DNA from: Acidobacteriota bacterium
GTDB lineage: Bacteria > Acidobacteriota > Terriglobia > Terriglobales > Acidobacteriaceae
Reading direction: 5' to 3'
Length of the DNA: 35,939 bases
Assembly (NCBI GenBank): GCA_021800195.1
Contig: JAJYZE010000001.1
Coordinates: 1-35,939, forward strand
Shown here: piece after piece, positions 3,651 to 23,178 of the stretch
Layout of the letters: each line of letters starts with the position of its first letter
How positions within the stretch are numbered: position 1 is the stretch's first letter
Translations under genes and position numbers: made by a program
The notes under the pieces: model-generated
The model's input: the letters and a program-made list of their open reading frames with translations, nothing else
Databases searched by the model: none
What the model was told of the DNA's origin: nothing

Positions 3651-3695
3651 CACATCCCGGCGGCCTTTCCGAGCTTCCTTTTTTGCGCTGTCACT

Positions 3696-3815
3696 ATAGT
3701 ATTTTCAGTGTCGATGGGTACACCGGAGAGGGCGTGCAGTGGCGTTTTCATTGGGGGAAGCGCCCATGGAGGTCGAGGCGTCGCGTTACACCTGCACTGA
3801 AAACGCTTTAGCGCA
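3696..3815 (+). repeat. Structured intergenic repeat, copy A
   Basis: About 120 bp between the TPR-thioredoxin gene and hisS, clearly homologous to 22661-22780 (copy B). Both share TTTTCAGTG, GATGGGT, GGCGTTTTCATTGG, CGCCCAT and GTCGAGGC blocks in the same order and spacing. Copy A is bounded by a perfect 9 bp inverted repeat, TTTTCAGTG (3702-3710) and CACTGAAAA (3795-3803). The interior carries a 9 bp hairpin, GGCGTTTTC (3741-3749) with GGAAGCGCC (3756-3764), and a conserved 6 nt loop. It is not a gene: stops and short frames differ between copies. It may be a small MITE/REP-like element or a non-coding RNA. The 315 bp gap (3651-3965) shows nothing else except a weak TAAACT box at 3951, 9 nt before hisS. 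Confidence 0.75.
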
Positions 3816-22186: not shown

Positions 22187-23178
22187 TTTGGGCAAATTCT
22201 TCCGCTTTGAGCCCCGGGCGGCTGGCATCAAAGCGCGCGGGGGCAGGCCTGTCATGCCAGACTGAAACGATAGAGAATGGCACAGGAGATGCAGGCTGAG
22301 AATGGCGCGGCGGCTACACACATTCTAGGCTGGATCCCTCGCCGGGTCCGGCCAGGGCATCTTCGGATCAGCTTGCTCTGGCGCCAAACTCTCTCGAATC
22401 GCACGAGGGCGATCCGACGATCCGAACGGCGACGAATCGACCATACTCTTTGCATGAAGATCCTAAGGCAGACGAATGTCTTGATGGCGTGCCAGGGAGC
22501 CTTTGCTTGCGAAAAGGCTTGTCTTGCCGTTCGCGCCAGGGCGCTTCCTCCTTCCCTTGCGCCTTGCCCCAGGCAGAGCGGTGTGCGCTCTTTCGTGCAT
22601 CCTTCGCGCATCATTCGCGCGAGCCTGTTCACCCATCACGGCCCTTCGTACTCTAGCTCTGTAGCATTTTCAGTGTTGATGGGTGTCCTGAAGAGGGCTT
22701 ACAGCGGCGTTTTCATTGGAGAACACGCCCATAGAAGTCGAGGCATTGGGTGCACCTGGGCTGAAACTGCTTTCGCATCCTGGCCCTGCGGTGTTTTCCG
22801 CGAGAAGCGTTTTGTGGAGCCGACCCGACGCAGCCTGGACATAAATCCTCGCCGGTGCGGATGGTGACCGCACCCGGGGACAGAGGGATGCCTTGGCGGA
22901 GTTCCGATCGGACGCGAAAGAATCCTGCGCGGATTCATGTGCCTGATTCCCACCGTCCCCGAACGGATAACCCTTCACCTTCCTGAAAGGCTGCCAGCCG
23001 TCACGGGGGCCTGCCAATCTTTCTCCATAGCTTGAGATCATCGCCGCCCGCGGTGGCTGAGGTCAGCCCGGATAGACCCACGCCCGTACAGGCGCTGGAG
23101 GAGCAGCGCCAGACAGGGTTTGTCCGCAAGGAGCCAAGGAGTGACAGAGCTTCGCTCGATGACTGCCGAAGCGTCAGG
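22187..23178. other. About 1 kb without a credible gene between the GH3 and TonB-receptor genes
   Basis: Short open frames on both strands have no recognisable domain, no ribosome site and mixed composition. The stretch contains repeat copy B (listed separately). It also has a perfect 7 bp hairpin, GGTGCGG (22854-22860) with CCGCACC (22868-22874), without a T-tract. The last ~300 bp follow the 3' end of the TonB-receptor gene. It may be decayed coding DNA, but no protein remnant was recognised. Confidence 0.4.
22661..22780 (+). repeat. Structured intergenic repeat, copy B
   Basis: Diverged second copy of the 3696-3815 element, same orientation in the window. The outer repeat is reduced to TTTCAG (22668-22673) with CTGAAA (22761-22766). 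The inner hairpin is GGCGTTTTC (22706-22714) with GAACACGCC (22721-22729) and loop ATTGGA. Compared with copy A, one stem pair changes from T-G to T-A, the A-copy terminal loop has the same length, and ATGGG/CCCAT is kept in both. One T-C mismatch occurs in this copy. Flanking genes are unrelated to those of copy A and lie on the opposite strand, so it is not the leader of a particular gene family. Confidence 0.75.

Follow-up and report, generated by a model that had tools for sequence, protein, structure and literature searches.

A dispersed miniature element of the Acidobacteriaceae with IS630-like ends, TA flanks and frequent placement at stop codons

Introduction

The window analysed here, a stretch of 35,939 nucleotides from a soil bacterium of the family Acidobacteriaceae, carries a structured intergenic sequence near 3.7 kb and a diverged relative of it near 22.7 kb. 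A sequence-only reading had proposed that the two are copies either of a dispersed small mobile element (MITE- or REP-like) or of a non-coding RNA family, possibly of the Acido-1/Acido-Lenti-1 type. The question raised by this locus is therefore which of these the sequence belongs to, and how it came to lie beside unrelated genes. The analysis points to a new family of MITE that is very probably moved in trans by transposases of the IS630 (Tc1/mariner) type.

Copies A and B of the window

The two copies are real, being 78% identical across approximately 113 bp with an identical order of blocks in pairwise alignment. Their exact edges were taken from the family alignment, which places copy A at 3697-3808 and copy B at 22662-22772, both on the plus strand; the edges first suggested were off by a few bases. 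Copy A is a member of subfamily A with 96% identity to the subfamily consensus, as seen from genome search and alignment, and copy B belongs to subfamily B. A TA lies to the left of copy A (3695-3696) and another to its right (3809-3810), both established by comparison of empty and filled sites, while the flanks of copy B have decayed to TG (22660-22661) and TC (22773-22774). The neighbouring genes are indeed unrelated, as had been remarked: copy A has a redoxin/TPR protein and HisS beside it, and copy B has GH3 together with a beta-barrel protein of the outer membrane.

Copy A begins with a left terminal inverted repeat, TAGTATTTTCAGTGT (3697-3711, plus strand), and ends with the right one, reverse complement AAGCGTTTTCAGTGC (3794-3808, minus strand). 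The outer inverted repeat noticed in the window is thus genuine but is longer in the family, at 14-17 bp, and is perfect in the families of Granulicella mallensis and of genome G021. Between the ends lies an inner palindrome with the family consensus GGCGTTTTC-ATTGGG-GAAAACGCC. In copy A it reads GGCGTTTTC-ATTGGG-GGAAGCGCC (3741-3764), two A-to-G changes having produced T-G pairs, and in copy B it reads GGCGTTTTC-ATTGGA-GAACACGCC (22706-22729) with one T-C mismatch. The inner 9-bp hairpin therefore exists in the family, but neither window copy has its perfect form, and the supposed pairing-preserving change from T-G to T-A is decay from the consensus rather than compensation. Nor does the pair ATGGG/CCCAT, found in both window copies, hold in general, as the left side of many copies reads CTGGG or ACGGG.

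Copy number and distribution

The search for further copies in the same genome and its relatives found many. The assembly to which the window belongs (G000; 3.02 Mb in 392 contigs, 88.8% complete) contains 61 distinct copies of the approximately 112-bp element as determined by extraction and alignment, a DNA search with the element giving at least 40 matches and a left-end pattern occurring at 63 places versus none for the reversed control, far more than chance would give. These copies form two main subfamilies, of which A and B each represent one. With this length and copy number and with no conserved gene inside, the element has the size and content of a MITE. Every frame of the consensus appears open, and a coding function was therefore considered; uniform decay of the copies, together with indels that shift the frame, makes it seem unlikely.

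Matches were obtained in 15 of 41 genomes of relatives, every one of the same GTDB genus. A census with a pattern for the inner core found the element in 14 of the 28 genomes of the genus, including 145 copies in G011, the closest relative of G000 (67% complete), and the class-wide census found it in 8 of 399 genomes, all of one family and three genera, with a maximum of 174 copies. Many sister species are without it, and genomes free of the element were also free of the inner core in this census. The distribution is thus patchy and shows bursts, from 0 to about 170 copies per genome within one acidobacterial family.

An exact scan of genome contigs for the inner core gave 39 stretches, with hosts including Granulicella, Terriglobus albidus, Bryocella elongata, MAGs of Acidobacteriaceae and one MAG labelled Pseudomonadota. 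The contig of the last is probably mis-binned, given that a Granulicella MAG carries the same element with the same flanks (L115, L124). In Terriglobus albidus a head-to-tail pair of copies has its starts approximately 115 bp apart (L123:1808-2040), and in G. mallensis X5P3 a copy (L199; contig C29 near 10460) sits within the loop of an apparent intrinsic terminator, AAAGACCTCGG...CCGAGGTCTTTT. A literature search, with subscription papers mostly outside its reach, found no description of the element.

Insertion sites

The flanks of G000 copies were joined with the element removed and one TA kept, and were then searched against G011, where they match continuous sites. Eight orthologous empty sites were recognised in G011 and one in G002, with copy A of the window among the insertions so resolved. 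Five of the sites in G011 consist of a single TA (L085, L070, L072, L082 and that of copy A, L061/L149, which reads TCAC-TA-GCGCAGCC), and a sixth was found in the comparison of G. mallensis X5P3 with G002 (L204/L267, GTG-TA-GC). Each of these six shows a lone TA when empty and, when filled, is bordered on both sides by TA or a variant of it with one decayed base, as fits TA duplication. Two further empty sites are not TA, namely GA at L069 and TG at L084 (compared with L145 and L157); here the filled site keeps that dinucleotide on the left and has TA on the right, a pattern that simple target duplication does not predict. In G. mallensis X5P3 a number of copies are near-identical, and movement there has therefore probably been recent.

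Placement at stop codons

Many copies lie exactly at the ends of genes. In G000, 24 of 58 right edges (approximately 40%) fall on the stop of an ORF that is 100 codons or longer and runs towards the element; for left edges the count is 9 of 59 (Fisher p 0.002). The background in the window, with the two strands counted together, is 61 of 717 TAs, or about 4% per strand, and against this the excess at right edges has a binomial p of 4e-18 per strand; when only TAs in a YTAR context are used, p is 1e-5. The rebuilt stop is made from the TA of the target and an A of the element, for example CGC-TAA-AGCG, while one copy yields TAG. Eight of ten tested genes ended by the element match Pfam families, and the genes so ended include those for SRP54, UppS (undecaprenyl diphosphate synthase), an Obg-type GTPase, Lgt and MarC. 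The left end of the element in G000 reads TAT, which would destroy a stop, and selection after insertion would on that account explain why right edges are favoured over left ones. The supply of stop codons by repeats is not new in kind, as GTAG REPs (PMC3733652) and BOX elements (PMC3049150) already do so.

Terminal repeats and IS630 transposons

Two-ORF IS630 elements of the genus and family, approximately 1.03 kb in length with an HTH ORF and a DDE ORF, have ends that match those of the element. Scored against a profile of the element's ends, none of 5,995 TA-flanked control sites exceeded 7.7, whereas IS630 ends from the same family scored up to 19.3 and several exceeded 14. The left end of such an insertion sequence, GAGCATTTCTCCTGAAGGTGTATAGT (L304), can be set alongside the right end of the element, GAGCATTTCTCCTGTAGGTGTAGACC (L110), and an IS right end, GAGCATTTTCACAGTTGCTATAG (L316), alongside the element's left end, GAGCATTTTCACTGTTGCTGG (L109). 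Both share the same asymmetry, the left end of the element resembling the IS right end (GTTnCTG) and its right end the IS left end (GGTGTA). The variants of the ends also agree, with CTCCTG, CACTG and CCCTG types in the element and CTCCT, CACAG and CCCTA types in IS630.

In the 88.8% complete assembly G000 no intact IS630 with matching ends (AGCATTTTCAGTG) was found, and the IS630 fragments there have other ends. The complete genome G002 has intact-looking copies of the element, yet no match to the IS630 DDE domain (DDE_3). An autonomous parent with identical ends was sought by pattern in G002 and G023 and discarded as a candidate, as the search gave mostly pairs about 100 bp apart and no element of about 1 kb. 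In G002 an ORF of 423 amino acids lies on the opposite strand between two copies that are 1.45 kb apart (L189:1864-3135). There is also a copy of another family with GACCATTTTCCC ends in G011 (contig C258, L187:1283-1420), which lies directly at the TA bordering the end of an IS630 transposon whose transposase ends in ...LALYGLQ.

Alternative explanations

The argument for a structured non-coding RNA family, spread by duplication and with its outer stem and inner hairpin kept for the function of the RNA, comes from comparison between families. The covariation test gave a strong signal in the outer stem, with nine pairs changed on both sides (28 cells, 0 of 500 shuffles), and among 20 members chosen independently of the core conservation is highest in the inner hairpin, with an identity of 0.886 versus 0.79 for the outer ends, 0.635 for the inner ends and 0.57-0.65 for the spacers. 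The covariation of the terminal stem, however, coincides with matching variants at IS630 ends and is explained by them, and the inner hairpin shows no double-sided change. Within copies the core has mutation values of 0.029 and 0.021 as against 0.022 and 0.030 for spacers, differences which are not significant (Fisher p 0.24 and 0.20). Mismatches of the G-T and A-C kinds occur in similar numbers (12 versus 8), so that wobble-type pairs show no clear strand bias. Folding energies are ordinary, with z-scores of -0.9 and +0.6 on the plus strand and -2.2 and -0.1 on the minus strand, the weak -2.2 being that of copy A. No Rfam covariance model reached its gathering score in the window and none matched the copy A region even at E<=10, so that the suggested kinship with Acido-1/Acido-Lenti-1 type RNAs is not supported. 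With a core that mutates like the spacers, no wobble bias, no Rfam match and ordinary folding, individual copies look like neutral relics; the RNA reading is not supported and is considered highly improbable, the element-free genomes also lacking the core altogether. For the latter reason the inner palindrome was likewise ruled out as an operator of the host.

A conserved inner hairpin within a long inverted repeat, together with the position of right ends at stop codons, would also suit a domesticated MITE kept as a 3'-end signal for mRNA protection or attenuation, since the 3' untranslated region would then start with the minus strand of the element. Against this, the copies bear no sign of purifying selection, the distribution is patchy with many sister species lacking the element, and no T-run of an intrinsic terminator follows the hairpin, so that such a role seems unlikely. 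The remaining possibility, a REP/REPIN-like element moved by RAYT (a Y1 tyrosine transposase) without target duplication, would make the right TA the element's own, and would accommodate the two empty sites that are not TA; Y1 transposases are present in 26 of the 28 genomes of the genus, and GTAG REPs are likewise suppliers of TAG stops. Those genes are, however, near-ubiquitous in the genus regardless of the element and occur where it is absent, none of 30 fetched Y1 loci had the element in the flanks scanned, and neither end has a REP palindrome, whereas both match IS630 down to their variants. The genus moreover has another, conventional palindromic repeat which would fit RAYT better, its link to the Y1 genes being presumed. 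This short repeat, GTGCCCGACATCTCGG...GAGATGTGGGT, was noticed in the flank of L073 (joined-flank query 675-730), recurs in all four relatives searched, and looks like the RAYT-type REP of the genus, unrelated to the element. The REP-like part of the original proposal was accordingly set aside as very unlikely, while its MITE-like part is borne out by the number of copies in the genome, by the empty sites and flanking TAs, and by the resemblance of the ends to IS630.

Proposed mode of spread

As a MITE moved by IS630, the element would depend on a transposase made elsewhere, which would recognise its ends, excise it and paste it into a TA, duplicating that TA. Insertion of IS630 at TA is established, with a reported preference for CTAG, and the transposase of ISY100 alone duplicates TA in vitro (PMC2170065 and references in it). 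Within these GC-rich genomes, TA dinucleotides that have the preferred (C/T)TA(G/A) context often belong to a stop codon, and many insertions therefore occur at gene ends. There the element's own A following the right-hand duplicated TA rebuilds a TAA stop, which would allow such insertions to be tolerated and kept. Once inserted, the copies decay neutrally, and the subfamilies would descend from a small number of active sources.

Comparison with known elements

The closest described analogue is RUP of Streptococcus pneumoniae, which is 107 bp in length, has about 100 copies and a TA target, and possesses terminal repeats like those of IS630-Spn1, movement in trans having been proposed for it as it is here (PMC2229807, PMC3049150). 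BOX of the same organism is similar in that many copies lie at the extreme 3' end of a gene and encode its stop codon, but it is modular in structure and is described as less similar to the ends of another insertion sequence, ISSpn2 (PMC3049150). GTAG REPs and REPINs are also dispersed near gene ends, where REP termini often supply a TAG stop, but these are palindromes of 20-40 bp that start with GTAG and are moved by Y1 enzymes, neither of which applies to the element (PMC3733652). RUP itself belongs to an unrelated organism and has a reported terminal repeat of 9 bp versus 14-17 bp, and the accessible part of its description mentions neither a conserved inner hairpin nor switching of ends between species.

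Nezha, which we take to be of the ISY100/IS630 type, comes from another phylum and, by description, differs in sequence. Correia/NEMIS and ERIC have Neisseria and enterobacteria as hosts and to our knowledge no sequence relation to the element. Nezha and other Tc1/mariner-type MITEs of cyanobacteria share with the element that they are short, non-autonomous and bacterial (as cited in PMC3733652), while Correia/NEMIS and ERIC are dispersed sequences of about 100-155 bp with terminal repeats and a terminal TA (PMC2229807).

Significance of the inner hairpin and of the family

The greater conservation of the inner hairpin than of the ends between families is unusual for a MITE, the interior of which is expected to drift. 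Given the neutral decay of individual copies, what is constrained is probably the mobility of the source copies. A tentative extension is that one MITE lineage with a kept inner hairpin has possibly switched its ends repeatedly, tracking different IS630 transposases across the Acidobacteriaceae, with the hairpin perhaps needed for mobility (for example as a site for a host factor or the transposase) and not for a function of the host.

A suspected RNA family thus turns out to be a mobile DNA element whose stem covariation is also present between transposon ends, and covariation counts on elements with inverted repeats should be checked against the ends of insertion sequences before an RNA is claimed. 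The element also illustrates clearly how, in bacteria, an insertion can hit a stop codon exactly and restore it. Its families form a natural series with a retained interior and with ends that resemble those of different IS630 transposases, making the specificity of these transposases testable.
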